A stretch of 64,000 nt of DNA from NCBI GenBank assembly GCA_945957605.1, contig CAMFLR010000001.1, forward strand, positions 248,001-312,000. The letters are read 5' to 3'. Source of the stretch: an uncultured Isosphaeraceae bacterium. GTDB taxonomy: Bacteria; Planctomycetota; Planctomycetia; Isosphaerales; Isosphaeraceae. Shown here one piece after another: positions 16,734-34,513 of this stretch. The notes below the pieces were generated by a model. That model was not told where the DNA came from. It was given only the letters and a program-made list of their open reading frames with translations, and did not search any database. Each line of letters starts with the position of its first letter. Position 1 is the first letter of the stretch. The translations under genes and the position numbers were made by a program.

Positions 16734-16766
16734 GTGAACACCCCTTGCAGAGATGATTTGAGATTC

Positions 16767-17903
16767 TCAGGCCGCGCGAACGATTGCCGGAGCATTCTTG
16801 CGCTTCCATGCGCAGTGCTCGTCGACAATCAGGCGGGCGACGCGTTCCCAGTCGTAGCGTTCGAACAACTCGGCTGGCTTGATCACGCCGTCGCCGTGCT
16901 GTCGGAACGAACGCCAGGCGGCGTCCACCGTCGACCCGTCGCGCGGGTCGAAGAGGTAAACGCCTTCATGTTGAAATTCGCGAATCGAGCTGTTGTGGCT
17001 GGTCAAAACCGGGGTGCCGTGGCGGAGGGAGTCGACAACCGGGAAGCCGAAGCCTTCGTAGAGGGACGGGTAGATCGACCACGATGCCTTTTGGTAGAGG
17101 CGGCAAAGTGAACGATCGGAGATGTTGCCCAGGAACCGCACGCGGCGGCCACCGGCGGGACGAGTCATCGCTCGCAACTCGCGGCGCGAGGTGAGCCAGC
17201 CCATTCGGCCAACCCACCAGAGCTCCATGTCGGGCGGAAGAGCAGTCGAGTTGTGGAACCAGTCGAGAAGGAATCCGGCGTTCTTGCGTGGCTCGACGGT
17301 GGAAACCGCCAGGCCAATCTTGGGCGAACGGCGAACCTTGTGCGGGTAGCGATGCGTTTTCAGGCAGAGGCTCATTCCCGAATGCGCGACCTTGATGCGG
17401 TCGGGCGGCATCGGGCTAAGCCAGGCGGCGTCGGCCTTTGTCGAGTGTGAGACGGCGACGGCGATGTCAGACTTCAAAAGCGTGTCGGAGTAGAAGCGTT
17501 CGAATCCGCCGCGGGCCGCTTCAGGGAAAGTGAAGCCGACGATCAGCGGGCAGAGGTCGTGGAGAACGCTGACCTCGAACGGGAAGATGCGAATTCCGTC
17601 GGTACGGACGCCGCAGTACAGGCCCATGCTGGCGGAATCAGGTGGCGCGAGCGGCGTGCGTTCGCCGTGCCAGACGCGGCGGGCCCAGAGTTCGATGTCC
17701 TGGTCGGGCGACCAGCTTATGCCGGCGAGCGGCTGAATTTCTTCGCTTTTGTGGAAGAACCTGACGTTAACGCCCTGCGCGGCAAGCGCGAGAGCGAGTC
17801 GCGCGGTGTAGCGCGGGATGCCCGCGAACCAGCGCCAGGCGAACGGCTCGGCTTCAATGAACACCGTTGGCCGGTCGAGATTTGTTTGCCCCTGATCGTC
17901 CAT
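16767..17903 (-). CDS. GT4 family glycosyltransferase
   Basis: A 378-residue GT-B enzyme. The acceptor domain includes WFAGIPRYTARLALAL; the donor site is PSLYEGFGFPVVDSLRHGTP, with Glu in the first position and Asp in the second of the E-x7-E-like pair, then VLTSHNSSIREF. 'AVSTVEPRKNAGFLLDWF' is the GT4 hinge motif. ATG 17903 is chosen over the GTG at 17912 because GGAG lies eight bases before it. The gene leads directly into the double glycosyltransferase gene downstream, with which it probably shares a transcript. Confidence 0.88.
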   Translation of the reverse strand: MDDQGQTNLDRPTVFIEAEPFAWRWFAGIPRYTARLALALAAQGVNVRFFHKSEEIQPLAGISWSPDQDIELWARRVWHGERTPLAPPDSASMGLYCGVRTDGIRIFPFEVSVLHDLCPLIVGFTFPEAARGGFERFYSDTLLKSDIAVAVSHSTKADAAWLSPMPPDRIKVAHSGMSLCLKTHRYPHKVRRSPKIGLAVSTVEPRKNAGFLLDWFHNSTALPPDMELWWVGRMGWLTSRRELRAMTRPAGGRRVRFLGNISDRSLCRLYQKASWSIYPSLYEGFGFPVVDSLRHGTPVLTSHNSSIREFQHEGVYLFDPRDGSTVDAAWRSFRQHGDGVIKPAELFERYDWERVARLIVDEHCAWKRKNAPAIVRAA

Positions 17904-18005
17904 GCCCGCCACTCCGACGATTTCGACAATATCTCAATTCGAGTCTGCGTGGATCGGCGAGGGGGACGATCCGGCGCGGTCCACGCGTCTTGTGTTCTGC
18001 GTCAA

Positions 18006-19190
18006 CTACCGCTTGGCCTTCTCCTTCTCTTTCTTCTTGTCATTCGCGAGGGCAACAAGCGAGTCCATCATGTCTTCGATTCGCTTGGCATTCGGTTGAG
18101 CCTTGTATTTCGGCAGGCTAACCCAATGTGTGGCGGTGTCGGACCGGGGCTCGAGTTCGCGTTTGATCGCGTCGGCCAGGTCGGTCGTGAATGCCACTGC
18201 GCCGTCGCGATTCATGTGCGTCGAGTCGATGAACACTTCGTTGGCATATTCTGAGAAGCGGCCATCGACAACCGTGACGCCCTTGTGCTTCGCGGCCATC
18301 GACTTCACGAACTGTGTGTAAGTTTCTTCGATGCCGATTTCTACACGATGCTTGACCGTGCTAGGCGCGATCGGCGGCAAGATCCAGAAGACGGGGACGT
18401 CGAGACTGGCCGCGAGGTCGAAGAACTTGTGAATGTACAGTTCCGAGAACGGGTGGCACTTCCAGTCCTTCTCGAAAAGGAAGGGCGAGGCCGGATCGAC
18501 ATAACCCGTGAATTTCGGGTTATATGTGGGGTGATTTGCGCCACGGTTCATGAGCGCGTTTCGCGCCATGATCACAATCTCGTGGAGGCGCGGCGGTTCG
18601 GTGCCGTTCAAGCCCGCGAGGATGTTCTTGCGAATTTCCTCGCGGCAGCGGAGCGTGGGGATTTTGGAAAGCAGGAAGAGGCGGGCGAAGAGTTGGGAGT
18701 CGGACGTGGCGATGGCGAAATCGAGAAAGTCGCGCGTAGTTGCCATCTCGGGCAGCACGCGTTCGTTCCAGGTGTAACCCATCGCCAGCGCGGTCCACTT
18801 GAACTCGACGACAATCGCTTCGGGCTTGCAACCCGCGGCGAGCGCGTGCTTGAAGACCGTGTAGCTGGCGAACGGCTGGGCGCCACTGAGCGCGAAGTTG
18901 TAGGCGGTTTTGCCGAGCTTTTCTTCGAGGATGCGAGGAGAGACACCGCCACGCGTGAGGCTCGTCCCGAAGCAGGGAATTTGCGTCTTGCGTGCGACGT
19001 GTTTGACCGACCGCGCCGTCACGCTCCATTCCAGGGCGTAAGGCGTGCTGAAATCGCGGCGGTACGAAACATAAGTCTCGAACCCAACGACGATCACCAG
19101 CATCCCCAGCACGCCGAACGGGGCTTTGATCCGCCGCTTCGGCTTGGGCGTTTCGTCCATCGTCAATTCCTTCGCAGATTCATCGGCCAT
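18006..19190 (-). CDS. SGNH-like protein paired with MBOAT (AlgJ/AlgX-like role)
   Basis: A 394-residue protein with a short cytoplasmic tail, one N-terminal membrane helix (FGVLGMLVIVVGFETYVSY) and a periplasmic SGNH-hydrolase-like domain. Block I is CFGTSLTRGGVSP with the probable nucleophile Ser, and block V is DSTHMNRDG with Asp322 and His325. The C-terminus is Lys/Glu-rich. It follows the MBOAT gene after 28 bases, the usual pairing in which MBOAT moves acyl groups across the membrane and the SGNH partner transfers them to a polysaccharide. The long frame would overlap the MBOAT gene; ATG 19190 has GAGGA at eight bases. Confidence 0.8.
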   Translation of the reverse strand: MADESAKELTMDETPKPKRRIKAPFGVLGMLVIVVGFETYVSYRRDFSTPYALEWSVTARSVKHVARKTQIPCFGTSLTRGGVSPRILEEKLGKTAYNFALSGAQPFASYTVFKHALAAGCKPEAIVVEFKWTALAMGYTWNERVLPEMATTRDFLDFAIATSDSQLFARLFLLSKIPTLRCREEIRKNILAGLNGTEPPRLHEIVIMARNALMNRGANHPTYNPKFTGYVDPASPFLFEKDWKCHPFSELYIHKFFDLAASLDVPVFWILPPIAPSTVKHRVEIGIEETYTQFVKSMAAKHKGVTVVDGRFSEYANEVFIDSTHMNRDGAVAFTTDLADAIKRELEPRSDTATHWVSLPKYKAQPNAKRIEDMMDSLVALANDKKKEKEKAKR

Positions 19191-19218
19191 TCGAGATGTC
19201 CTCACGTGCTCAAGCGGC

Positions 19219-20634
19219 TTAGAACTGGAAGTAGATGAACTGGCTGCCCTGGAAGTTTCCACCCAGGATGAACGCGTAGAAGCAAAGCGTGTAGAAGACG
19301 CTTCGCACGTACCACGGGGTACGGGAGACGATGTCGAGGTCTTTCGAGAGGTATTGTGCGAGCTGCACGAGGAACAGCGGCAGGATGATGAGCGTCACCT
19401 GGGCGAGGTAGATGCCCTGCGGAATCGCCGGCCGTTTGACGATCGCCTGGAGCATGCCGCCAACCTGTGCAAGCGACGACGATGCGAAGAAGAGCCAGCC
19501 GAGGCAGACGAGGTGGAACGTCACGACAATACATGCGACCTTCCACCAGACCTGATCGGCAGGGTTCTTGGGGGCGATTTTTTCGAGCCACGGCTTGAGC
19601 ATGCGATGGCCAACGAGTAGCACGCCTTGATACGTGCCCCAGACGACGAACGTCCATGCTGCGCCATGCCAGAGGCCGCCGATGATCATCGTCAGCATGA
19701 GGTTGCGATAGAGGAACCAGCGTCCGCCGCGATTACCGCCGAGCGGGATGTACAGATAGTCGCGGAGCCAGGTGGAGAGGCTGATGTGCCAGCGGCTCCA
19801 GAAATCTTGCGGGCTGGTGGCGAAGTACGGCAGGTTGAAGTTGAGTGCGAGCTCGAAGCCGAGACACTTGGCGATACCGCGGGCTGCATCGGTGTAGCCG
19901 GAGAAGTCGCAATAGATCTGGAATGCGAAGGCGTAGATCGCCAGCATCGCCAGGCCGCCGTCGATCGTCTCCCAGCGCCCGAAAAGCTCTTTGACGATCG
20001 GCGAGAGATTGTCGGCGACAACGACCTTCTTCGTGAGACCCCAGAAGATGAGGTAGCAGCCCTGGTAGAACTGGTCGATGTTGAACTTGCGCTTGTTCTG
20101 GATCTGCGGCAGCAAGGTCGTGGGCCGCATGATCGGGCCGGCGACGAGGTGCGGGAAGAACGAGACGAACGCCGCGAACTCGATGAAGTTCTTGGTGGGC
20201 GGGATGTCTTTACGATAGACGTCGATGACGTAGCTCATCGACTGGAAGGTGTAGAAGGAGATACCGATCGGCAGGACGATTTCGAGGTGTCCGATGGGCA
20301 CGTGAATGCCCATACGGCCAAGCGCGAGCTGCAGGCTTTCGGCGAAGAAGTTGACGTATTTGAAGTAGCCGAGCATGCCGAGGTTGAGCGCCATGCTCAG
20401 GAGCACGAAGCCCTTGCGCTTGCGCGGTTCCTCGATACGATCGACCATGATGCCGCAGGCATAGTCCATTACCGTGGACAGAATCAGCAGCGCGAGAAAT
20501 TTAGGATTCCAGCAGGAATAGAAGTAGTATCCCGCACCAAGAAGCAGCCAGTTCTGCGGTTTTTTGGGGAGGAGCCAGTAGACTGGCAAGAGAATCAGGA
20601 AGAAGTAGGCAAAAGGCAGCGAGTTAAATAGCAT
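19219..20634 (-). CDS. MBOAT family O-acyltransferase (AlgI-like)
   Basis: A 471-residue polytopic membrane protein typical of the AlgI branch of the MBOAT family: N-terminal 'MLFNSLPFAYFFLILLPVYW', the core 'LPIGISFYTFQSMSYVIDVYR', 'FFPHLVAGPI' and the catalytic His323 in GLWHGAAWTF. These proteins pass acetyl or similar groups to exported polysaccharides. GAGG lies about eight bases before ATG 20634. It is the first gene of a pair with the SGNH protein downstream and sits among glycosyltransferase genes, so the likely substrate is the glycan they build. Confidence 0.95.
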   Translation of the reverse strand: MLFNSLPFAYFFLILLPVYWLLPKKPQNWLLLGAGYYFYSCWNPKFLALLILSTVMDYACGIMVDRIEEPRKRKGFVLLSMALNLGMLGYFKYVNFFAESLQLALGRMGIHVPIGHLEIVLPIGISFYTFQSMSYVIDVYRKDIPPTKNFIEFAAFVSFFPHLVAGPIMRPTTLLPQIQNKRKFNIDQFYQGCYLIFWGLTKKVVVADNLSPIVKELFGRWETIDGGLAMLAIYAFAFQIYCDFSGYTDAARGIAKCLGFELALNFNLPYFATSPQDFWSRWHISLSTWLRDYLYIPLGGNRGGRWFLYRNLMLTMIIGGLWHGAAWTFVVWGTYQGVLLVGHRMLKPWLEKIAPKNPADQVWWKVACIVVTFHLVCLGWLFFASSSLAQVGGMLQAIVKRPAIPQGIYLAQVTLIILPLFLVQLAQYLSKDLDIVSRTPWYVRSVFYTLCFYAFILGGNFQGSQFIYFQF

Positions 20635-22307: not shown

Positions 22308-23177
22308 TTACAGCGGCAACAAGGGCCCCTGTACCACCGAGTTGGCGAGGGTGCCGATCCCGTCGATCGAGATCTTCACGTGGTCGCCGCCTTTGAGTGA
22401 GAATTCGTCGGGCGGGACGATTCCGGTGCCGGTGACCATGAAGGCTCCGTACGGGAAAAGATTGTCGCGGCCGAGCCAGTCGACGAGCTCTTCAAACTTG
22501 CGCGCCATGCGATCGAGCGAGGTTTCGCCCGAAACGATCGTCGCGCCGTCACGCTCGATTTGAAGCGAGATTTTCACTTCCTGGATCGGCGGCATCGATT
22601 CGACGAGCGTCACTGCTGGGCCGAGAGCGCAGCAGGCGTCGTAAACCTTGGCCTGTGGCAGATAGAGCGGATTTTGGCCTTCGATGTCGCGGGCACTGAC
22701 GTCGTTGCCGATCGTGTAGCCGACGATCTTCAAGGCGGGATTGAGCACGAGCGCGAGTTCGGGCTCGGGAACGCACCAGCGAGTGTCGCGACGGACGCGG
22801 ATCGCAGCGCCTGGGCCTACGACGCGCGATGGAGTCGCTTTGAAGAAGAGTTCGGGGCGCGGGGCGCTATAAACCAGGTCGTAAAACGATCCGCCCGACT
22901 CCGACTCTTCCTGGCGGGCGACCTTGCTGCGGAGATAGGTCACGCCGGCTCCCCAGACTTCCTGGCGGTCGATGGGAGCGAAGATGATCGCGTCGGCGTG
23001 AGAGACGAGCGGGCCGGCGTTCTCGGCCCATTCCTTGGCAAGCTGCGCGGGGTTCTGCGCGTGGAGGAGGTCTTCGAGTGCGGCGCCGACGGGGCCAATC
23101 GGGCGGACTCCGGTGTCGGTGAATTCGCCGACAATTGGTCTGGGGTCTGAACTTGTGGCGAATTTGCAGAGCCGCAT
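22308..23177 (-). CDS. Fumarylacetoacetate hydrolase (FAH) family protein
   Basis: A 289-residue member of the FAH superfamily. The metal-binding acidic residues lie in PEPELALVL and near [23 protein letters not shown]; '[12 protein letters not shown]' and the C-terminal '[22 protein letters not shown]' are classic family blocks. Enzymes of this family hydrolyse or decarboxylate diketo acids or related sugar acids (for example 2,4-diketo-3-deoxy acids in sugar-acid pathways); the exact substrate is undetermined. The open frame runs to 23534, but family members start near [11 protein letters not shown] 23177 has AGGGAG about eleven bases upstream. Transcribed divergently from the ketosynthase gene. 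Confidence 0.88.
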
Positions 23178-23280
23178 GATGAGGTCATCTCCCTGGCAAA
23201 AAGCACAATCTTCGCGAGATTCTTCCATAATCGCCAGAGTCGGGCTGGTCAATCTGGCCGTTTTTTTGTCCATTAGGGGT

Positions 23281-23430: not shown

Positions 23431-24696
23431 ATGCCGGAACGGGTCGTGGTGGTCGGACATAGCGCGATCACCTGCCTCGGGCGCGACATGGACGCGACGT
23501 GGCAGGGTTTGATGGAGTGCCGCTCGGGGCTCAAAAGCCACGAGAAACTCAGCCCCGATCGTTACTTGCGCGACGTCGCCGGCCTGGTCGAAGGCTACGA
23601 TCCTGGCACTCCGACCGAGGAAGCTCTCGTTTCGCGGCTCGAAGCCAAGTCGATCCATATGGCGATCGCCGCCGCGCGCATGGCGCTTGCCGATGCCGGG
23701 CTTGATCGCATTCAAGCTTCCGACGACTACGATCCGCATCGCGTTGCCGTGTGCGTCGGCTCGGCATTTGGCGGACAGGACCTGCTTCAACTCGAACTCG
23801 ACCGGTCGTCGCGACGAAAGACGAACTCCGTCGGCCCATATCTGGTGCCTGGAATGATCATCAATCAGGCGTCGGGACAGATTGCACAGCACTTCAACGC
23901 TTATGGTCCAAGTGTTTCGCCCGCGAATGCCTGCGCGGCGGGTGGGCACTCCGTCGCGATGGCTGCGATGCACTTGGTTGCCGGTGAGGCTGACTTTGCG
24001 ATCTGTGGCGGAACGGAGAGTGCGTTCACGCCGTCGATCGTGAATGGATTTGCGACGATGAAGGCGCTGGCGAATCGCAAGGAGGGGGATCGTGCTCATA
24101 CGGATCCTTCGCAGGCGAGCCGGCCGTTCAGTGCCGATCGTATGGGTTTTGTGATGAGCGAAGGTGCGGCCTTGCTGGTTCTCGCGACGGAATCGGCAGC
24201 GCGGAAGTGGGGCTTGCCGGTTCAGGCCGAGCTGATCGGTTGGGGGACCAATTCCGACGGTTACCACGTAACGACGCCTCATCACGATCGTATCGCCTAC
24301 CTGCTCAAGAACACGCTGAGTCGCGCGAAGCTGAGCCCGAGTCAGGTCGATTATTACAATGCCCACGGCACAAGTACCGTGGTGCTCGACAGGCTCGAGA
24401 CCGAGGTTCTCAAGGAAGTTTTGGGGCAACGTGCGCGGGAAATACCGGTCAGTTCGATTAAAGGGGCGATCGGGCATGCGCTCGGGGCGGCCTCGGCCAT
24501 CGAAGCAGCGGTTTGCGTGCACAGTTTGATGGAACAGCGCGTGCCGCCGACGATCAATCACGTACCCGACCCTGAGCTCGACCTCGATTTTGTGCCCAAC
24601 CATTCGCGCCCGGCCAATCTCGAAGTAGTGGTGAGCGCTTCTTTCGGATTTGGCGGGACGAACAATGTTTTGATCTTCAAGAGAGGCGACCAATGA
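23431..24696 (+). CDS. Beta-ketoacyl-ACP synthase II-like enzyme
   Basis: A 421-residue thiolase-fold condensing enzyme of the FabF type. The catalytic triad is intact: Cys168 in NACAAGG, His312 in NAHGTST and His349 in IGHALGA; the Gly-rich end FGFGGTNN is also present. It should condense malonyl-ACP with an acyl primer. The next gene is an ACP whose ATG overlaps its stop (ATGA), so the two are translationally coupled and the ketosynthase probably works with that ACP. Clustered with an LpxL-like acyltransferase, so it may belong to a specialised lipid pathway rather than housekeeping synthesis. Confidence 0.93.
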
Positions 24697-24950
24697 ACGA
24701 CCAGAGCTTGCAGGCCGAACTGATCGACTCCGTTCGTGCGATTGCGCGGATTCCGTCGGACATCGCGATCGCCAGCGACAGCCGGCTCGTGGAAGACCTC
24801 GGAATCGACTCGCTCGATCTGGTGAGCATTGTGCTCAACACGCAAGAGCGCTACGGCATCGCGATCGACGAGGACGAAGTCGCGCGGATGCACTCGGTTG
24901 CAGACCTCGTGACGTACGTTTCGCGGCATCTGAACGCGGCGGCGGCCTGA
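24693..24950 (+). CDS. Acyl carrier protein
   Basis: An 85-residue, acidic four-helix carrier. The phosphopantetheine site is Ser40 in LGIDSLDLVS; the flanking 'VEDLGIDSLDL' and 'IDEDEVARMHSVADLVTYV' match ACPs. It overlaps the ketosynthase gene by four bases. The helix II/III sequence after the serine differs enough from a housekeeping AcpP (DSLDTVELV) that a dedicated pathway role is plausible. No separate transcription signal is needed. Confidence 0.94.
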   Translation: MNDQSLQAELIDSVRAIARIPSDIAIASDSRLVEDLGIDSLDLVSIVLNTQERYGIAIDEDEVARMHSVADLVTYVSRHLNAAAA

Positions 24951-25061
24951 GTCGAAGTTCTGGGCTAGGTTTGCCGATAATTACGACTGTCCCTCATAGC
25001 CGGGTTGTACGAACGCGTCTTGCAAGGATGTAAGACGAGCCCCGCCCAAGGACGGAACACT

Positions 25062-25991
25062 ATGTGGCAGCGCTGGATGGTCGTGCACAAGGTCGTGCTG
25101 AAGACGGTTCTCCCCGTGCTTCGCCACTTGCCGCATCGCGCTTCCGTCGCCATTCTGGGCGCGATGGGACGGCTCGACCTCACGCTTGTTCCGAAACAGG
25201 CGAAGCTCTATGAGGCGGCCGTTGCCGAGGCGGCAAAACGCATCGGTGCCGATTGGGACGTGAAGAAAGTCAGTCATGCCTTGTCGCGCCAAACCTACCG
25301 CTGGCGCACGCGTGACTTCCTGCTCGACGGCCGCGGCGACGCCAAGGTTTCACGCTGGTTCAAGGTGATTGGCCGCGAGCATCTCGACGCCGCGATGGCC
25401 GAGGGCCGGGGCGTGATCATGCTGGCGAACCATTTCGGCTCTCACCTACTCTCTTCGCACTGGATGTTCCGCGAGGGGTATCCCCTGCGCTGGTTCTCCG
25501 AGAAACCGCGCAACGTGTCGAACTTCATGGCGAAGAAGTTCCAGACGAACGGCCCGCTCGGTCAGGAGCGGATGTTTATTTCGCGACGGTCGACTCCGGC
25601 CGATGCTGCGTCGGCGATTCTTCGCGCCAGCCGCGCGTTGAGTGCGGGAATGATCGTCAAGGTCGCGTGCGACGTACGCTGGTCGGGGGCTCACACCGCG
25701 ATGGCGTCGTTCCTGGGACGATCGCTCTCGTTCACGAAGACATGGGTGAATCTGGCAGCGATGTCGGGCGCGGCGATCATGCCGGTGTTTTGCCGGCTTG
25801 AAGAAGACGGGACCTACGTGCTCGAATTCCTGCCGACGTACCACGTTCCGCCCGATGCCCCGCGTACCGGTCAAGACGCCTGGTGGGTGCAAAATGCGCT
25901 CAATGCGATCGAGGAGCAGGTTCGCCTGCATCCCGAACAGAGCAACGACTACTTCTTCTGGGCCGACGAGATTGGCGAACAGGCGGCCTGA
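25062..25991 (+). CDS. LpxL/HtrB-like lipid acyltransferase
   Basis: A 309-residue LPLAT-fold protein with the family blocks 'GVIMLANHFGSHLLSSHWMF', 'MFISRRSTPAD' and a C-terminal 'NDYFFWADE'. HtrB/LpxL enzymes acylate lipid A from acyl-ACP, which fits the ACP gene 110 bases upstream. The motif His124 is followed five residues on by Leu129 where H-x4-D/E enzymes have an acid, so the catalytic pair is either displaced or altered. The long frame uses TTG at 25005; ATG 25062 with AAGGA ten bases upstream is chosen. Confidence 0.75.
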   Translation: MWQRWMVVHKVVLKTVLPVLRHLPHRASVAILGAMGRLDLTLVPKQAKLYEAAVAEAAKRIGADWDVKKVSHALSRQTYRWRTRDFLLDGRGDAKVSRWFKVIGREHLDAAMAEGRGVIMLANHFGSHLLSSHWMFREGYPLRWFSEKPRNVSNFMAKKFQTNGPLGQERMFISRRSTPADAASAILRASRALSAGMIVKVACDVRWSGAHTAMASFLGRSLSFTKTWVNLAAMSGAAIMPVFCRLEEDGTYVLEFLPTYHVPPDAPRTGQDAWWVQNALNAIEEQVRLHPEQSNDYFFWADEIGEQAA

Positions 25992-26095
25992 TCGCGATTG
26001 GCCTTGCCGCCTTTGGGTATAACGGATAAACAACCACGATTGCGGCTCGCCTTTGGGCGTTGCGAACACGGATGTTACACCCGAGGAATGAATCC

Positions 26096-27466
26096 ATGGG
26101 CGACGGTGCGGTGGTGGAAGCGAAGCGTCGCGCGGGTTCGAGCGTGTGGCCCTGGGCGATTCTCCTGCTCACGGTGCTGCCGGCCATCTGGCACGTCGTT
26201 TACTTTCCGAATGAGCTCGACCCTGAGTTTCCCAAGGTCGACCGGCCGACGTTCAGCAAGATGCCTCCGCCCGCCTACCGTCTCGCCGAGCCTGGCGACA
26301 CGCTTGACCGCGTGGCGATGTATATGGCTGCGGCAGGCGTCGCGATTTCGCTGGTCGGTCTGATTCGTTCGCGCCGGGAGACAACACTCTGGCCGACGTC
26401 ACTGGTGCTCTGCCTCGCCGCGCTCTGGCACGCGTCGACCCCCGGCCCTACGTTTGACGGCTGGCACGGGCTCGGCTTTCGGGCGATCTTCGACGGCAAT
26501 ACACCTGCGTGGGAGCGCGTTCTGATTGCGCTTGGCGCGTTCGGAGCTGCGACGGTCGTTGCGCTCAATCTGCGTGCCTGGTTCAAATCGAGCCGTAGCA
26601 ATGGCGAAACGTGGGTGAGTAGCAATCGCGGCCTGCTGCTTGCGGCGTTCGTGTTGGTTGCTGCTCGCCAGTTCGAAATCCCAGGTGTCGAACCGGTTGG
26701 CTACTGGCCGCGATGGGCACAAATTTGGGGATTACTTGCGTTCGATCTCGCGTTGTTTCGTTCACTGGGAATGCAGGGATTTCCACGTTTCCGGGCTCGG
26801 ATGGGCTGGACGACGCTCGCTGCCGGCGCTTGGTTGGTGCTGGTTGTCGTCGGGGTAAAAGTCTCGTGGTTCCATCGCCCGCTCGAACGGTTGCATGAAG
26901 TCGAACCGGGCAAGGTCTACATCTCGGCGATGCCGACGTATCCCGGTCTCCAGGTGGCGCAATCGCGGCATCAGTTCAAGACGATCATCAACCTCTTCCC
27001 GGAAGACACCGATCAGCGCAGTTCGCGACTGCCTGATGAACATCGCTTCGTCCGTGAGAACGGGATCAAGTACATCGAGGCGTCTGCGAGTGACAATCAC
27101 TCCGATGAATTCCTCGATTTGTGTCTCGCGACGGTTCAGGATCCGGCTAACTTGCCGGTTTTGATCCATTGCCACGGCTGTATGGATCGTTCGCCGGGTT
27201 GGATGGGGGTTTATCGTTTCATCGTCCAGGGGCGGCCGCTCGACTCGATTCTCAAGGAGATCGAGGCGCATCGCGGGTATCGGCCGAAGGCGTCGATCAC
27301 GTTGTTGTTCAACCGTGTCCTTGAAGCGCGGGCGCCGGAGCGTTATCAGGCTGATCCGACGGCGGCGTTGTTGCAGAAAAACGCGCACGGCATCAAAATC
27401 ACGCCCTATGTTCCACCCAAGGCTCGCAAGTTGACGCAAGCGGGCGAGCCTCCGGTGCGCCCGTAA
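26096..27466 (+). CDS. Polytopic membrane protein with HCX5R phosphatase-like domain
   Basis: A 456-residue protein. Residues up to about 260 contain roughly six hydrophobic segments (for example WPWAILLLTVLPAIWHVVYF and RGLLLAAFVLVA). The C-terminal part is soluble and holds the cysteine-phosphatase signature HCX5R: Cys359 in HCHGCMDRSPG, with Arg365, preceded by 'FKTIINLFPED' and 'ASASDNHSDEF', where DSP-like enzymes keep their general acid. It resembles lipid or dual-specificity phosphatases. Start ATG 26096 has GAGGA about nine bases upstream; the longer frame opens at 26060. It closes the ketosynthase-ACP-acyltransferase run, suggesting a lipid phosphate substrate, which is inference. 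Confidence 0.72.
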   Translation: MGDGAVVEAKRRAGSSVWPWAILLLTVLPAIWHVVYFPNELDPEFPKVDRPTFSKMPPPAYRLAEPGDTLDRVAMYMAAAGVAISLVGLIRSRRETTLWPTSLVLCLAALWHASTPGPTFDGWHGLGFRAIFDGNTPAWERVLIALGAFGAATVVALNLRAWFKSSRSNGETWVSSNRGLLLAAFVLVAARQFEIPGVEPVGYWPRWAQIWGLLAFDLALFRSLGMQGFPRFRARMGWTTLAAGAWLVLVVVGVKVSWFHRPLERLHEVEPGKVYISAMPTYPGLQVAQSRHQFKTIINLFPEDTDQRSSRLPDEHRFVRENGIKYIEASASDNHSDEFLDLCLATVQDPANLPVLIHCHGCMDRSPGWMGVYRFIVQGRPLDSILKEIEAHRGYRPKASITLLFNRVLEARAPERYQADPTAALLQKNAHGIKITPYVPPKARKLTQAGEPPVRP

Positions 27467-27552: not shown

Positions 27553-27622
27553 GGGCGATGATCGCTAGAGTTACCAGGCGTTTTCTGGCGATGCTCGCCC
27601 CAAAAAGTTGGCCCATTTTCCC

Positions 27623-28915
27623 ATGAGTTCACACTTGCCGGTTCTGAGTGCGTCGGCCCGACGGACATCTCCGCCTGTCATCAGCAGCCTCATGCAAGCC
27701 GCCTTGGCCAATCCGGCCTTGATTTCGCTGGCTGCGGGTTTTGTTGATCAGGAGAGCCTGCCCGCCGCAGCGACCGCGCGCGTGATGACCGAAGTGTTGA
27801 ACGACCCTGTCGAAGGCCGTCGCGCTCTTCAATACGGCACGACCGCCGGCGACACCGAACTGCGATCGCAGATCCTCCGGCTGCTGGAACGCGGCGAAGG
27901 TGTTAGCGAAGGAGCTTACGAGGCGTATCTGCCGCAGGTCGTTGTGACCCAGGGGTCGCAGCAACTGCTTTACCTCGTCGCCGAGGCACTGCTCGACCCA
28001 GGCGATATCGTGCTTGTTGAGTCGCCGACGTACTTCGTCTTCCTCGGTGTGCTCGAAACCCACGGCGCCAGGGCGATTGGCGTGCCGATCGACGACGGCG
28101 GCATGAAACTCGATGCCCTCGAAGCGACGCTCGAAGAAATCTCTGCTCGTGGTGAACTGGGGCGAGTGAAGCTGATTTATTCGATCACCGAGCACTCGAA
28201 TCCGACGGGTCTCAGCCTCGCCCCCGACCGCCGAAAGGGATTGGTGGAGATCGCCCAGCGTTGGTCGAAGGAGCGGCCGATCTACGTTCTCGAAGATGCG
28301 GCCTATCGCGGACTTTCTTACACCGATGGCCCAGAGCCGCGCAGTGCGTGGAGCTATGACGAGACCGGCGATACCGTCATTCTCGCGAGGACGTTCAGCA
28401 AGACGTATAGCCCCGGGATGAAGACGGGATTCGGCGTTTTGCCGAAGTCGTTGGTTAAGCCGATTCTCGGGCTTAAAGGGAATCACGACTTCGGTTCGTC
28501 GAATTTGCACCAGATGGTGTTGGCACGTGTCTTGCGTGAAGGCGTATACATTGAGCAGGTCGAGTTGCTCAAGTCGCTGTACAAGGCGAAGCGCGACACG
28601 ATGCTCGAGGCGCTCGATCAGCACTTTGCCGGTTTTGACGGCCAGGTAAAGTGGACTCGCCCCGCAGGCGGGTTGTTTGTATGGTTCAGCGCTCCAGAGG
28701 GGGTCGACCTCGGTCCGCTTGGGTCGGTCTGGCCGAACTGTCAGTCGAAGGGAGTCATTTACGTGCCCGGACAATACGCATTCGCGCACGAACCGACTCC
28801 GCCCGAAACAAACCACGCCCGGCTCTGCTTCGGCGTGCCGGACGAAGCCGATCTTAAAGAAGGTATCGCGCGGCTTGCCGCCGCACTGGCCGAATGTTTG
28901 GATCCTGTCGCCTGA
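27623..28915 (+). CDS. PLP-dependent aminotransferase (2-aminoadipate/MocR-like fold)
   Basis: A 430-residue fold-type I PLP enzyme close to LysN/2-aminoadipate aminotransferases and MocR C-domains. Lys260 in RTFSKTYSPGMKTGF is the Schiff-base lysine; 'ITEHSNPTGLSL', 'YVLEDAAYRGL' and the N-terminal 'ISLAAGFVDQESLP' are family blocks. Substrate is probably an amino acid with a 2-oxo acid partner. The longest frame starts with TTG at 27608; ATG 27623 is used although its Shine-Dalgarno signal is weak. Its context between lipid genes gives no pathway hint. Confidence 0.88.
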   Translation: MSSHLPVLSASARRTSPPVISSLMQAALANPALISLAAGFVDQESLPAAATARVMTEVLNDPVEGRRALQYGTTAGDTELRSQILRLLERGEGVSEGAYEAYLPQVVVTQGSQQLLYLVAEALLDPGDIVLVESPTYFVFLGVLETHGARAIGVPIDDGGMKLDALEATLEEISARGELGRVKLIYSITEHSNPTGLSLAPDRRKGLVEIAQRWSKERPIYVLEDAAYRGLSYTDGPEPRSAWSYDETGDTVILARTFSKTYSPGMKTGFGVLPKSLVKPILGLKGNHDFGSSNLHQMVLARVLREGVYIEQVELLKSLYKAKRDTMLEALDQHFAGFDGQVKWTRPAGGLFVWFSAPEGVDLGPLGSVWPNCQSKGVIYVPGQYAFAHEPTPPETNHARLCFGVPDEADLKEGIARLAAALAECLDPVA

Positions 28916-29029: not shown

Positions 29030-30310
29030 GTGCGATTCGGAATCCTCCAGCGCTACGTAAGCGGTGAAGTCCTGCGCTCGTTCCTCCTCGCGCTGTTGAC
29101 GATCACGATTGTCTTCGTCCTCTTCATCGTCATGACCGAGGCCACACGCAACGGCCTCGGTCCTCGCGATATTCTGGCGCTCATCCCGTTCGTCGTCCCC
29201 GGCAGCCTCCCCTATACCGTGCCGGTCTCTCTACTGTTCGCGGTGACGGTCGTCTATGGCCGCTTGGCCGGCGATAACGAGGTGATCGCGGTCAAGACTG
29301 CTGGGTTGAGCGTTTGGGCGGTGCTCTGGCCGTCGATGTCGCTGGGCCTGGTGATCAGTGCGGCGCTGGTGTTTTCGTCGCAGTACGCGATCCCGATGGC
29401 GAACACGCTCGCTTTCAGGACGATGGTCAAAAGTTACGAAGACGCTTTCTACAAACTACTCAAGAAGGAACGCGAGTTCCGCACGCCCGACTCGCCGTTT
29501 GTGATCCAGATCAAGGATCTCGACGGGCATACGATGATCGGCGCGATCTTCAAGCACAGACCGCCCAAACGCCCGATCGTTCCTGGCGAACCTGAGCCGA
29601 CGTACTTCGACAAGGTGATTCAGGCGAAGACGGCGACCATCGAGTTCGACCTGCCGAACGACGTGATGCACGTCAAACTCGACGGCGCGGACATCAGCGA
29701 TGGCGCGAAGCCGCCGGGGCCGCCGAAACCGGGCGAAACCGTTAATCCTGAGGAGCCGCAAGGGTCGTCATTCGTCATCAACGACAGCACGATCGACGTG
29801 CCTCTGCCGCGCGAATTCAAGCGGCCGATGGATAAACGTATCCAGCAGATGACGAATAGTGAGATCGACATCAAACAACGCGAATTCCGTGATAAGCTTC
29901 TTTTCGAGCGCAAACGACAGGCCTACTCGGCCGGTCTGTGGATCGGCTCGGGCTTACCACAGCGCGTCGATTGGCCCGGATTTCAGACTGCGTTTATCGA
30001 CTACCGCTTCTGGGAGCAGAAGTGGAACGAGTTTGAGACCGAGAAACAGATGCGCACCGCGATGGCGTGTGGCAGCTTTTTCTTCGTGTTTCTCGGTAGT
30101 CCGGTCGGCATTCGATTCGCACGTCGCGACTTCCTGTCGGCGTTCATCACCTGTTTCGTCCCGATCATCATCATCTATTACCCGCTCATGCTTGGCGGCG
30201 TGAACATAAGTAAGGACGGCCTGCTTCATCCAGTCCTCGCCCTCTGGATGGGCAACATCGTGCTGTTCGTCCTTGCGTTTCTTACGCTGCGGCCGGTGAT
30301 CCGGCATTAA
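29030..30310 (+). CDS. LptF/LptG family permease, first copy
   Basis: A 426-residue protein of the YjgP/YjgQ (LptF/LptG) family: N-terminal helices (YVSGEVLRSFLLALLTITIVF, PYTVPVSLLFAVTVVYGRLAGDNEVIAVKTAG), a long soluble domain from about residue 145 to 345 and three C-terminal helices. The 'RLAGDNEVIAVKTAG' motif is the family hallmark. These permeases, with LptB, extract LPS from the inner membrane. Start GTG 29030 has GGAGG six bases upstream. The second permease gene follows after 28 bases, as in an lptF-lptG operon; an lptB gene is not in view. Confidence 0.9.
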   Translation: MRFGILQRYVSGEVLRSFLLALLTITIVFVLFIVMTEATRNGLGPRDILALIPFVVPGSLPYTVPVSLLFAVTVVYGRLAGDNEVIAVKTAGLSVWAVLWPSMSLGLVISAALVFSSQYAIPMANTLAFRTMVKSYEDAFYKLLKKEREFRTPDSPFVIQIKDLDGHTMIGAIFKHRPPKRPIVPGEPEPTYFDKVIQAKTATIEFDLPNDVMHVKLDGADISDGAKPPGPPKPGETVNPEEPQGSSFVINDSTIDVPLPREFKRPMDKRIQQMTNSEIDIKQREFRDKLLFERKRQAYSAGLWIGSGLPQRVDWPGFQTAFIDYRFWEQKWNEFETEKQMRTAMACGSFFFVFLGSPVGIRFARRDFLSAFITCFVPIIIIYYPLMLGGVNISKDGLLHPVLALWMGNIVLFVLAFLTLRPVIRH

Positions 30311-30338
30311 TCGCCATAGACTGGCGGAGCCCTGATCG

Positions 30339-31517
30339 ATGGGTATTCTCGACCGGCAACGGTATTGGGCCTTCGGTAAGGCCTATGTGATTTGCTTCGT
30401 CGCGCTCGTGGGCCTGTACGTCGTTATCGACGCGTTCACGAACGTGGATGAATTTGCGGAGGTCTCCGAGACCACGCTCCAGCTCTTTTCGAACATGGGC
30501 TGGTACTACCTCATCAAGATGAGCATGTTCTACGACCGTCTTTGCGGCGTCATCACGATGATGGCGGCGATTTTCACGGTCACCTGGATGCAAAAGAACA
30601 ACGAACTGCTCGCCATGCTCGCCGCCGGTATTAGTACCAGGCGCGTGATTCGGCCGGTGCTCATCTCGTCGATGCTTGTAAGCGGAATCGCGGTGGCGAA
30701 TCAAGAATTGATCATGCCTCGGATTGCCGAAGACCTGCAGAAGCCGCCTGACGACGACAGCGTGCGCCGGGTGATGGTGACGACGCGGCACGACTCGAAC
30801 GACTTGACGCTATCGGCCTCCGGTCAGGCGGATCGTCGATTCAAGACGCTTTTTTACTTCAGCGCGACGATTCCGGTGACGGTCGCTGAAGAGTTGCTGG
30901 AGATTCAGGCGAACCAGGCGCGGTATTTTCCGCCCGATTCGAACACGCCGCTCAAGGACGGCTGGCTGCTGCACAACGCGCGGCTGGTTACCCCGCCAAC
31001 GAGCGACGCCCACACGAACGTGCTCACGAAGCTCGACTCGCTCGAAGGCTTCCCGATGCCGTTGATTGTGACCGAAGATTCAGCCGAGTACGCCAAGGAT
31101 GCGCTTCCAGGCGACATCTACTTCCTGAAGTCGGACCTGACGTTCGATGCGATGACACGGTCTCGGCAATGGTACCAGTTCGCCGACACGCGCGAGTTGA
31201 TCGTCGCCCTTCGCGAAATGCACAACAAACCCGAGTGGGTGGACATCGAAGTCTTTCTGCACAGCCGGATGATTCGCCCGCTAGCAGCGCTCGCGCTCTT
31301 GGGAATCAGCCTGCCCATCGTCCTGGGCGGCCAGGGACGAAATATGTTCGTTAACCTGGGCCTCTCGCTGCTCACGTCGGGCATTTTCTACGCCTCGACG
31401 TTCATGTCGGGCTATTTCGGCTCGAATGGTGCCATTCCTGCGACTCTCGCTGCCTGGATACCGCTGTTCATTTTCGGAACACTCGCGGTCGCGCGGTGGG
31501 ATACAATCCGCACCTGA
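30339..31517 (+). CDS. LptF/LptG family permease, second copy
   Basis: A 392-residue partner of the preceding permease, also YjgP/YjgQ-like. It opens with 'RQRYWAFGKAYVICFVALVGLYVVIDAF', has 'LAMLAAGISTRRVIRPVLIS', the LptG-type coupling region, then a periplasmic domain and C-terminal helices including 'LAALALLGISLPIVLGGQGRN' and 'FYASTFMSGYFGSNGAIPATLAAWIPLFIFG'. That C-terminal pattern fits LptG more than LptF. It is probably co-transcribed with the gene 28 bases upstream and followed by a hairpin. Confidence 0.9.
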   Translation: MGILDRQRYWAFGKAYVICFVALVGLYVVIDAFTNVDEFAEVSETTLQLFSNMGWYYLIKMSMFYDRLCGVITMMAAIFTVTWMQKNNELLAMLAAGISTRRVIRPVLISSMLVSGIAVANQELIMPRIAEDLQKPPDDDSVRRVMVTTRHDSNDLTLSASGQADRRFKTLFYFSATIPVTVAEELLEIQANQARYFPPDSNTPLKDGWLLHNARLVTPPTSDAHTNVLTKLDSLEGFPMPLIVTEDSAEYAKDALPGDIYFLKSDLTFDAMTRSRQWYQFADTRELIVALREMHNKPEWVDIEVFLHSRMIRPLAALALLGISLPIVLGGQGRNMFVNLGLSLLTSGIFYASTFMSGYFGSNGAIPATLAAWIPLFIFGTLAVARWDTIRT

Positions 31518-31772: not shown

Positions 31773-31870
31773 TATGTGCTATACGCAAGAACGCCGATTG
31801 AGGTGAGTGGCTGGACGGGAGTTCAGTTACTCCGTGACAACCAGGTTTAGCCGCCGTGGCGGGGGTTGGA

Positions 31871-33154
31871 ATGCGTCGCGTGGTGATCACGGGAATCGGA
31901 ATTGTTTCTCCCAACGGACTTGGGCGCCAGTCGTTCACCGATGCGATTTCCGAGGGGCGCTCGGGAGTCGGACCGATCGAAAGCTTTGACACTTCGGGCC
32001 AGGCGATTCGGATTGCTGGCGAGGTGAAAGGCTTCGACGTGATGAAGTACCTTGGTGAAAACAAGAAGAACGCCAAGACGATGGGTCGGGCGATCGGCTT
32101 CGCCGTGGGTGCGGCGGCGATGGCGATGGAAGACTCAGGGATCGACGTCTCCCGGATGGATCCGACCCGGTTTGGCGTTTGTATGGGGGCCGGCATCACG
32201 CCGGTCGACATCCGCGAGCTTGTCGAACCGATTGCGCGAGGGATTGGCGACGACGGCTTCAGCTTGAGCCGTTTTGCCGCAGCGCGTGCCGGCTCGATGG
32301 ACCCGCTCTGGTTGCTCAAACATCTGCCGAACATGGCGGCTGCGCATCTTTCCATTCTGCACCACGCGATGGGTCCCAACAGTACCGTGGTTACGGCCTG
32401 CGCTGCGGGAACCCAGGCCGTGGGCGACGCCTTCCGGCTCATCGGCCGGGGCGATGCCGACGTGATGATGGCGGGCGGCTGCGATAGTCGCATCGACCCG
32501 CTCATGCTCGTCGCTTACGAAGCGATGAAAGCCGTCAGCCACTCGCTCCGCCCTGCCTCGGAAGTGTCGCGGCCGTTCGACGGCGAGCGCGATGGTTTCG
32601 TGCTGGGCGAAGGGGCGGCGGTGCTCATCCTCGAAAGCCTTCAGCATGCTCGCCGCCGCAAGGCACGGATCTTCGCCGAGGTGCGTGGTTACGGCTCGTC
32701 GTTCGATGCGCACGGACTGACCCGTCCCGAACCCGAAGGCCGAGGCGCTGCTCTTTCGATGACATCTGCACTTCGCGAAGCGCGAATCGACGCGGCAGAC
32801 GTCGACTACATCAACGCGCACGGCACCTCGACGCGCCTGAACGACCTGATGGAAACGGTCGCGGTCAAGCGGGTGTTTGGCCATCGTGCTCGCAAGATTC
32901 CGATGAGTTCGCAAAAGTCGATGGTGGGTCACCTCATCGGCGCGTCGGGAGCGCTCGAAGCAGCCGCGACGGCGATTTCGCTCGATAGTGGAGTCGTCCC
33001 TCCGACGATCAATCAATCGACGCCCGACCCGGCGTGCGACCTCGACTATGTACCGAACACCGCGCGAGAAATGACGTCGCGCACTGCGATCTCGAACAGC
33101 TTCGGATTCGGCGGGCAAAACGCCACGCTCGTGATGTCGAAGTTCCACGGTTGA
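31871..33154 (+). CDS. Beta-ketoacyl-ACP synthase II-like enzyme, second copy
   Basis: A 427-residue FabF-type condensing enzyme distinct from the one at 23431. The catalytic triad is Cys177 in TACAAGT, His317 in NAHGTST and His354 in MVGHLIG; the Gly-rich end FGFGGQN is present. ATG 31871 fits the family start MRRVVITGIG; a GTG at 31856 is also open. There is no ACP directly beside it. Its position after the LptF/LptG pair suggests either a general elongation role or a role in envelope lipid assembly. Confidence 0.93.
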   Translation: MRRVVITGIGIVSPNGLGRQSFTDAISEGRSGVGPIESFDTSGQAIRIAGEVKGFDVMKYLGENKKNAKTMGRAIGFAVGAAAMAMEDSGIDVSRMDPTRFGVCMGAGITPVDIRELVEPIARGIGDDGFSLSRFAAARAGSMDPLWLLKHLPNMAAAHLSILHHAMGPNSTVVTACAAGTQAVGDAFRLIGRGDADVMMAGGCDSRIDPLMLVAYEAMKAVSHSLRPASEVSRPFDGERDGFVLGEGAAVLILESLQHARRRKARIFAEVRGYGSSFDAHGLTRPEPEGRGAALSMTSALREARIDAADVDYINAHGTSTRLNDLMETVAVKRVFGHRARKIPMSSQKSMVGHLIGASGALEAAATAISLDSGVVPPTINQSTPDPACDLDYVPNTAREMTSRTAISNSFGFGGQNATLVMSKFHG

Positions 33155-33292: not shown

Positions 33293-34513
33293 ATGTCCGG
33301 CGATTGGAGTGGCGGCGAGGGCGGCGGCAGTTGGGGCGGTGAAGGCGATAACGACGTCTTCACCGAACGCTCGTCGCAAAGTTGGTTCTCACGCATCATG
33401 GGCGCGCTGGTGGGCATTCCCATCGGCCTGATTCTTTTCCTCGGCTCGTTCGTTCTGCTCTTCTGGAACGAAGGCCGCGCCGTACACACTGCGCAGGGGT
33501 TGGCCGAAGGGAAAGCGGGCGTCGTTCACCTCGAACAAGGCCCCATCAACGCTGCCGACGATGGCAAGCTCATCCATTTCACCGGCTCGGCTCACAGCGA
33601 CGAGACGCTGAAAGACCCGGTTTTCGGTGTGAGCGCCAAAGGGATTCGCCTTAGCCGGCTGGTGCGGATGTATCAGTGGAAGGAAACGAGCGAAACGCAT
33701 ACGCGCAAGAAGCTCGGTGGTGGCCAGGAACGCGTGACGACCTACCGTTACGTGAAAGACTGGGCTGCGAAACCGATCAACTCGGCGGCATTCAAGGAGC
33801 CGGGCGGACATCAAAATCCGCCGAACTGGCCGTTCGAGGACTGGTCGCTCCAGGCGGAAAAAGTGACGCTCGGCCAGTTCGCGCTATCGTCGGGACTGGT
33901 CGGCCAGATTCGCAAGAGCGAGTCGGTGCCGCTGAATCAGGCGTTGCTTGATGCGTTGCCCGATAGTGTCAAATCCGGCATGCGGCTCGACGGCTTGCGA
34001 TTTTATCGAGGCGCCGATCCCGGCCGTCCCGAAGTTGGTGACATGACCGTCACCTTCGACCAGACGCTACCTCAGGAGGTGAGTGTTCTGGGCGCACAGT
34101 CGGGCAGCAACTTGGCCGCCTACAAAACCAAATCCGGCACGACGATCGAGCGTCTGCAACTCGGAGTCGTTCCTGCCGACGCGATGTTCGAGCAGGCCGA
34201 AACCGAAAACCGGATCATGACGTGGGTCATCCGCGCGGTTGGTTTCGTGCTGATGGGCGTCGGGATCTCGCTCGTCATGTCGCTGGCGACAGTGCTGGCC
34301 GACTTCATTCCGTTCCTGGGCAATTTCGTCGGCTTTGCCGCCGTGCTCGCTGCTTTCAGCCTCGCGGCCGTTTTCTCGCTCGTCACGATTGCCATTGGCT
34401 GGATTAGCTATCGGCCGATCATTGGCATTTCAGTGCTTGCAGCCGCGGTGATTCTCCTTGTGGGTATCGTCCGGGCGGGGAGAGATCGTCGTCCGCGGAC
34501 GGCCCCGATTTGA
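33293..34513 (+). CDS. TMEM43 family membrane protein
   Basis: A 406-residue protein matching the TMEM43/LUMA family (formerly DUF1625) in order: Gly-rich N-terminal tail, first membrane helix (GIPIGLILFLGSFVLLFWNEGRAVHTAQGL), a long extracytoplasmic domain, and a cluster of three C-terminal helices (TWVIRAVGFVLMGVGISLVM and following). The 'FWNEGRAV' motif after helix 1 is the hallmark. The human homologue is an inner nuclear membrane protein; bacterial function is unknown. GAGGGCG stands upstream of ATG; transcription signals were not placed. It is flanked by unrelated genes. Confidence 0.85.
   Translation: MSGDWSGGEGGGSWGGEGDNDVFTERSSQSWFSRIMGALVGIPIGLILFLGSFVLLFWNEGRAVHTAQGLAEGKAGVVHLEQGPINAADDGKLIHFTGSAHSDETLKDPVFGVSAKGIRLSRLVRMYQWKETSETHTRKKLGGGQERVTTYRYVKDWAAKPINSAAFKEPGGHQNPPNWPFEDWSLQAEKVTLGQFALSSGLVGQIRKSESVPLNQALLDALPDSVKSGMRLDGLRFYRGADPGRPEVGDMTVTFDQTLPQEVSVLGAQSGSNLAAYKTKSGTTIERLQLGVVPADAMFEQAETENRIMTWVIRAVGFVLMGVGISLVMSLATVLADFIPFLGNFVGFAAVLAAFSLAAVFSLVTIAIGWISYRPIIGISVLAAAVILLVGIVRAGRDRRPRTAPI

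Follow-up and report, generated by a model that had tools for sequence, protein, structure and literature searches.

A conserved gene block in the window

We examined a compact gene block in a 64,000-nucleotide stretch of DNA, the window (contig CAMFLR010000001.1, positions 248,001 to 312,000), which comes from the 8.84 Mb genome of an uncultured Isosphaeraceae bacterium (G000). Positions 23431-27466 hold four intact genes on one strand, encoding a ketosynthase (KS1), an acyl carrier protein (ACP), an acyltransferase of the lysophospholipid acyltransferase (LPLAT) superfamily and a seven-helix membrane protein that ends in a phosphatase domain. We refer to these four genes as the module. The closest named record is an Isosphaeraceae metagenome-assembled genome, with 77% identity in the LPLAT. 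Family-wide conservation, together with intact catalytic residues, rules out a chance origin of the four genes. Promoter and terminator scans found no clear operon end at the locus.

Table 1. The module and the genes around it in the window (aa, amino acids)
Feature	Position	Strand	Remarks
KS1, FabF-type beta-ketoacyl-ACP synthase	23431..24696	+	421 aa; PF00109+PF02801
ACP	24693..24950	+	85 aa; PF00550; phosphopantetheine serine in GIDSLDL
LPLAT, LpxL/LpxM/PatA superfamily acyltransferase	25062..25991	+	309 aa, single domain; PF03279
Seven-helix membrane protein with C-terminal PFA-DSP/Siw14-type Cys phosphatase domain	26096..27466	+	HCHGCMDRS
Class I/II aminotransferase	27608..28915	+	conserved neighbour downstream
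LptF-like LPS-export permease	29030..30310	+	sole LptF of the genome
LptG-like LPS-export permease	30339..31517	+	sole LptG of the genome
FAA-hydrolase-family gene	22308..23276	-	divergent, ~150 bp upstream of KS1; conserved flank; no evident role
KS2, second FabF-like ketosynthase	31856-33154		4.4 kb downstream

Ketosynthase and acyl carrier protein

KS1 retains all of its catalytic residues (Cys168, His312, Lys344 and His349; motifs NACAAGG, NAHGTST and SIKGAIGH), and its top matches in the PDB are FabF enzymes (E 5e-85). Its score against the fabF equivalog model is 393 bits, below the cut-off of 494, and in a phylogenetic tree it falls in a long-branch clade made up of Isosphaeraceae only (support 100/100), apart from both the housekeeping FabF and KS2. 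Among the 14 genomes searched, KS1 orthologues turned up in Isosphaeraceae only. A ketosynthase with 41% identity in a genome of another planctomycete family (G041) was rejected as a relative since it belongs to a housekeeping fab operon. In the fab operon of that genome acpP is directly followed by a gene for a second small ACP-like protein (L151:6820-7122, on G041:C20), which has the motif GADEYDLLE, without the phosphopantetheine serine. KS2 was likewise rejected as a module member, as it belongs to a different clade and its position and strand vary. It reaches 480 bits against the fabF cut-off of 494, forms an Isosphaeraceae clade of its own and adjoins a TMEM43-family membrane protein (33293-34513, 254 bits).

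An earlier account made from the letters of the window alone, here called the sequence-only reading, had described KS1 as coupled to the ACP by a 4-base overlap. This is exact: the KS1 stop codon and the ACP start codon share ATGA at 24693-24696. The coordinates given in that account are also correct. The overlap is confined to the closest relatives, and elsewhere small gaps, mostly of 7-59 nucleotides, separate the two genes. The same account had noted that the ACP motif deviates from AcpP. The ACP scores under the cut-off of every NCBIfam ACP model that it matched, with 52.6 bits against 84 for the housekeeping model. Housekeeping fatty-acid genes, which it had not seen nearby, are at a separate site as an acpP-fabF pair (G000:C1:1120637-1122081). 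A further cluster of the same genome lies apart from the module (L153:6175-12138, G000:C1 at ~350-356 kb) and has a pair of ketosynthases accompanied by an ACP, a hotdog-type dehydratase-like protein and a hydrolase on the minus strand.

An acyltransferase without the HX4(D/E) acid

The LPLAT reading frame opens at TTG 25005, and the start conserved among homologues is the ATG at 25062. The protein was expected to be LpxL-like, and it matches PF03279 with 56 bits (cut-off 22.3). Its AlphaFold model (predicted local distance difference test, pLDDT, of 90.5) has the fold of LpxL and LpxM, matching LpxM with a Z score of 20.6 (250 residues, root-mean-square deviation (rmsd) 4.0), and it matches PatA, the mycobacterial phosphatidylinositol mannoside acyltransferase, with a Z score of 20.3 (233 residues, rmsd 3.0). 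Unlike LpxL and LpxM, it has no acid in the HX4(D/E) motif, and it reaches 36 bits against the TIGR02207 cut-off of 298. PatA shares the catalytic His and differs in using acyl-CoA and in keeping HX4D; the window protein scores 39 bits against PRK07920, with a cut-off of 209.

We compared the active site across 32 sequences drawn from the module subfamily and its paralogue. Every one of them has His124 and Asp204, whereas position 129, where LpxL has Glu, is L, M, V or I throughout (Leu129 in the window protein). The canonical LpxL of the same genome carries GHFGNWE at this motif. By profile comparison Asp204 aligns to the first Asp of the LpxL DQD motif (D189), while a pairwise phmmer alignment to PatA shifts it by two residues. 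We take this site to correspond to Glu200 of PatA and to Asp532 of VexE, the Vi-antigen enzyme. For PatA, a separate acid, Glu200, has been suggested as the partner of the His, and the equivalent Asp532 matters in VexE, which is active although a Tyr replaces its HX4 acid (PMC9597891). Loss of the acid in every sequence could mean that the subfamily has become a non-catalytic scaffold. Given the two invariant residues, the alignment of Asp204 to the DQD motif and the activity of VexE, we regard this as highly improbable, and we infer that the window LPLAT is probably active through a His124-Asp204 dyad.

The window LPLAT resembles VexE in its LPLAT fold, in the replaced HX4(D/E) acid, in the retained His and, going by the profile alignment, in the retained Asp (PMC9597891). 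In contrast to VexE, which has a large N-terminal TPR domain and is encoded in a capsule locus with no dedicated ACP or ketosynthase reported beside it, the window protein has 309 residues, no TPR domain and both of these partners as neighbours.

A membrane-anchored cysteine phosphatase

The phosphatase reading frame may open at TTG 26060, with an ATG at 26096 and its end at 27466. Its loop, HCHGCMDRS, conforms to HCX5R, in keeping with the polytopic protein and cysteine-phosphatase signature of the sequence-only reading, and HCHxxxDR is kept in 21 of 21 aligned sequences. The score against PF03162, 26.2 bits, lies just below the cut-off of 27. In the structural model (pLDDT 80.7) seven helices precede the phosphatase domain, which is thus no stand-alone soluble domain; a hydropathy scan alone resolved five of the seven. 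A fold search covering the C-terminal domain matched PFA-DSP1 (Z 15.7), Siw14 (15.1), PTPMT1 (13.5) and bacterial TpbA (12.9). The window protein has the Cys-phosphatase fold and CX5R loop of these enzymes and differs from them in that the domain is fused C-terminally to seven membrane helices. A periplasmic location of the catalytic domain is suggested by the basic loops that, as read from the sequence, follow helices 2, 4 and 6.

Conservation within and beyond the family

The window proteins were mapped onto regions of other Isosphaeraceae genomes, many of which are drafts. The sequence-only reading would have been undone had the genes parted in relatives; within Isosphaeraceae they are kept together. 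The genes usually come in the order FAA-hydrolase (divergent), KS1, ACP, LPLAT, phosphatase, aminotransferase, LptF and LptG, with KS1-ACP-LPLAT contiguous, and the phosphatase directly after the LPLAT, in most genera. The LPLAT is present in 19 of the 21 genera sampled, the other two being represented by genomes 81% and 77% complete. Two of these 19 genera (G004 and G021) lack KS1 and keep the ACP, LPLAT and phosphatase; no KS1 orthologue was found elsewhere in their genomes, where the best candidates reach 37-38% identity over the full length. Singulisphaera-type genomes and their relatives have a second ACP-LPLAT pair without KS1 (L032, L065 and L067). Because the pair survives the loss of KS1 and is duplicated without it, the ACP-LPLAT link is the most persistent in the block, and KS1 comes next.

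Individual loci vary in other ways. The module LPLAT appears to be split by a frame change in G036 (L050:9801-10717) and tandemly duplicated in G012 (L044:9517-11405). A histidinol dehydrogenase and a cupin that stand between the LPLAT and aminotransferase genes in G029 look unrelated to the pathway and were set aside. Upstream of the module, the minus strand of the window at 14208-20634 holds a polysaccharide-type cluster with two GT4 glycosyltransferases, a DUF1574/SGNH-like protein and an MBOAT-like protein.

Beyond the family, the LPLAT profile gave 446-452 bits in two Isosphaeraceae members among 294 planctomycete genomes and at most 79 bits in all others; by score, we take the latter for ordinary LpxL-type proteins. 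A scan of 84,980 species genomes with an LPLAT pattern picked out 23 loci, whose labels are Isosphaeraceae, Singulisphaera, Tautonia, Planctomycetales or Planctomycetota. The full-length seven-helix phosphatase occurs in all 32 Isosphaeraceae genomes of a class-wide sample (at least 460 bits), including the genera in which it is unlinked from the module. Other families of that sample match the phosphatase domain alone, at up to ~72 bits, and the full-length architecture is found in Isosphaeraceae only. With KS1, the LPLAT and the phosphatase all found only within the family in these searches, the three therefore look like family-level innovations.

Lipid A genes and envelope context

LpxC and LpxK were present in 13 of 13 genomes tested, and PF03279 proteins in 24 of 25, including all 20 of high quality. 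Genomes outside Isosphaeraceae usually have one canonical PF03279 protein; those inside usually have a canonical one and up to two divergent paralogues, the window LPLAT among them. The window's own genome follows this pattern, with a canonical LpxL encoded separately. Its LptF and LptG, at 29030-31517, are the sole copies of the genome, and the sole LptFG pair adjoins the module in most genera. The sequence-only reading had mentioned neither these permeases nor the canonical LpxL, nor KS2 or the missing HX4(D/E) acid. Kerger et al. reportedly described, going by the title of their 1988 paper, long beta-hydroxy acids in planctomycete lipid A. We found no lipid data for the module; papers on PTPMT1 with Rhodopirellula offered nothing usable, and one on a new Isosphaeraceae genus offered nothing usable on fatty acids.

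A second family-specific paralogue, LPLAT2 (L051:3776-10257; G000:C18, ~107 kb), has the motifs SHLGAH and NGDIPW. Its neighbours, an AMP-binding ligase, a GDSL-like protein and a 479-residue protein, are conserved in most of ten loci compared. Unlike the window LPLAT with its ACP partner, LPLAT2 has no ACP nearby in G000, and its locus resembles a counterpart of the module that is fed by a ligase in place of an ACP.

Proposed function of the module

We give roughly even odds (a probability of about 0.5) to the module being a family-specific envelope-lipid acylation unit in which the acceptor of the LPLAT is most likely lipid A. What we infer concerns the transfer from ACP to LPLAT, the acceptor, the type of chain and the phosphatase step. 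KS1 would elongate or start an acyl chain on the dedicated ACP, with reductases and dehydratase borrowed from the housekeeping fatty-acid pathway. The LPLAT would take the chain directly from the module ACP and esterify an envelope glycolipid at the cytoplasmic face, serving, on lipid A, as one more secondary acyltransferase next to the canonical LpxL. The acylated product would be exported through the LptF and LptG encoded just downstream, and the seven-helix phosphatase, with its catalytic domain predicted to be periplasmic, may remove a phosphate from the exported lipid.

Acyl-ACP is the preferred donor of LpxL and LpxM (PMC9597891). The sequence-only reading had supposed that the ACP feeds the acyltransferase and that dephosphorylation follows. 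The first part fits the ACP-LPLAT link being the most persistent one; the second part fared less well, as in four genera the phosphatase gene lies away from the module.

Several observations weigh against the proposed lipid A acylation unit. The HX4(D/E) acid of LpxL and LpxM is absent, so that acylation of lipid A by the LPLAT cannot be assumed. No dehydratase, reductase or long-chain hydroxylase lies within the module. In g7 and g15 the FAA-hydrolase gene stands between the ACP and KS1, with KS1 and LPLAT still adjacent, and LptF and LptG are sited elsewhere in some genera (G003, G006 and G007). The phosphatase is missing from the locus in g7, g9, g15 and g20, yet kept in their genomes, and for that reason it is the weakest member of the proposed pathway.

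The same ACP-to-LPLAT chemistry could serve an acceptor other than lipid A, for instance a sugar nucleotide or lipid anchor of an exported polysaccharide, or an amino-acid lipid such as trimethylornithine. VexE, which shares the lack of the HX4(D/E) acid, acylates UDP-GlcNAc and not lipid A (PMC9597891), and a canonical LpxL is present separately. The glycosyltransferases and MBOAT-like gene upstream in the window would suit a polysaccharide acceptor, but these genes are mostly not conserved alongside the module. Isosphaeraceae do make trimethylornithine lipids; however, so do Gemmataceae-type species (PMC7828035), whereas the LPLAT is found in Isosphaeraceae only. With the sole LptFG also adjacent in most genera, we consider a different acceptor possible, though less probable than lipid A.

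It could also be that no single pathway unites the neighbourhood: KS1, ACP and LPLAT would make one lipid, and the phosphatase, aminotransferase and LptFG would be envelope genes in their own right. The phosphatase would then act on protein phosphotyrosine or a soluble pyrophosphate, like its closest solved relatives. Its retention in the four genera where it is unlinked accords with this, as does the nearness of its fold to the Siw14/PFA-DSP inositol pyrophosphate phosphatases; a promoter-like site precedes the aminotransferase gene, although not above chance level. On the other hand, the phosphatase, like the LPLAT, was found in this family only, and in most genera its gene comes directly after that of the LPLAT; its domain is joined to seven membrane helices, and the known lipid phosphatase PTPMT1 is also within reach of its fold (Z 13.5). 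Such an independent neighbourhood seems quite unlikely. A far-reaching form of the proposal, in which KS, ACP, acid-less LPLAT and seven-helix PFA-DSP phosphatase form a complete private Isosphaeraceae pathway to a family-unique lipid A or envelope lipid, and in which a PTP-type phosphatase in the periplasm takes the place of LpxE/LpxF-type trimming, also appears unlikely.

Relation to the rhizobial acpXL-lpxXL cluster

To say, as the sequence-only reading did, that no system with this gene set has been described was too strong, as it overlooked the rhizobial cluster acpXL-fabZXL-fabF2XL-fabF1XL-adh-lpxXL, in which a dedicated ACP, ketosynthases and an LpxL-type enzyme provide lipid A with a C26-C34 chain (PMC11901934). 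Like that cluster, the module groups a dedicated ACP, a FabF-type ketosynthase and an LpxL-family acyltransferase apart from housekeeping fatty-acid synthesis. It differs in lacking FabZ, the dehydrogenase and a second ketosynthase (KS2 being no fixed member of the block), in an LPLAT without HX4E, in the extra seven-helix phosphatase and in belonging to another phylum. Against PRK06508, PRK06501 and PRK06519, which we take to be the models of AcpXL and the XL ketosynthases, the module ACP reaches 28.3 of 83 bits with the first, and KS1 reaches 239 of 629 and 22 of 320 bits with the other two. Since it lacks the remaining genes of the cluster and its proteins fall far under the family cut-offs, the module is probably not orthologous to the rhizobial cluster or a member of it, and by analogy would work in a similar way.

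Implications for planctomycete envelopes

Little is known of the outer-membrane chemistry of planctomycete envelopes, and the module offers a small set of genes, open to testing, that underlies an envelope trait at the level of a family. Outside the rhizobia, it would be an independent instance of a dedicated ACP coupled to an LpxL-type enzyme. LPLATs that lack the HX4 acid would gain a second group next to VexE, and a membrane-anchored PFA-DSP would become a candidate lipid phosphatase.

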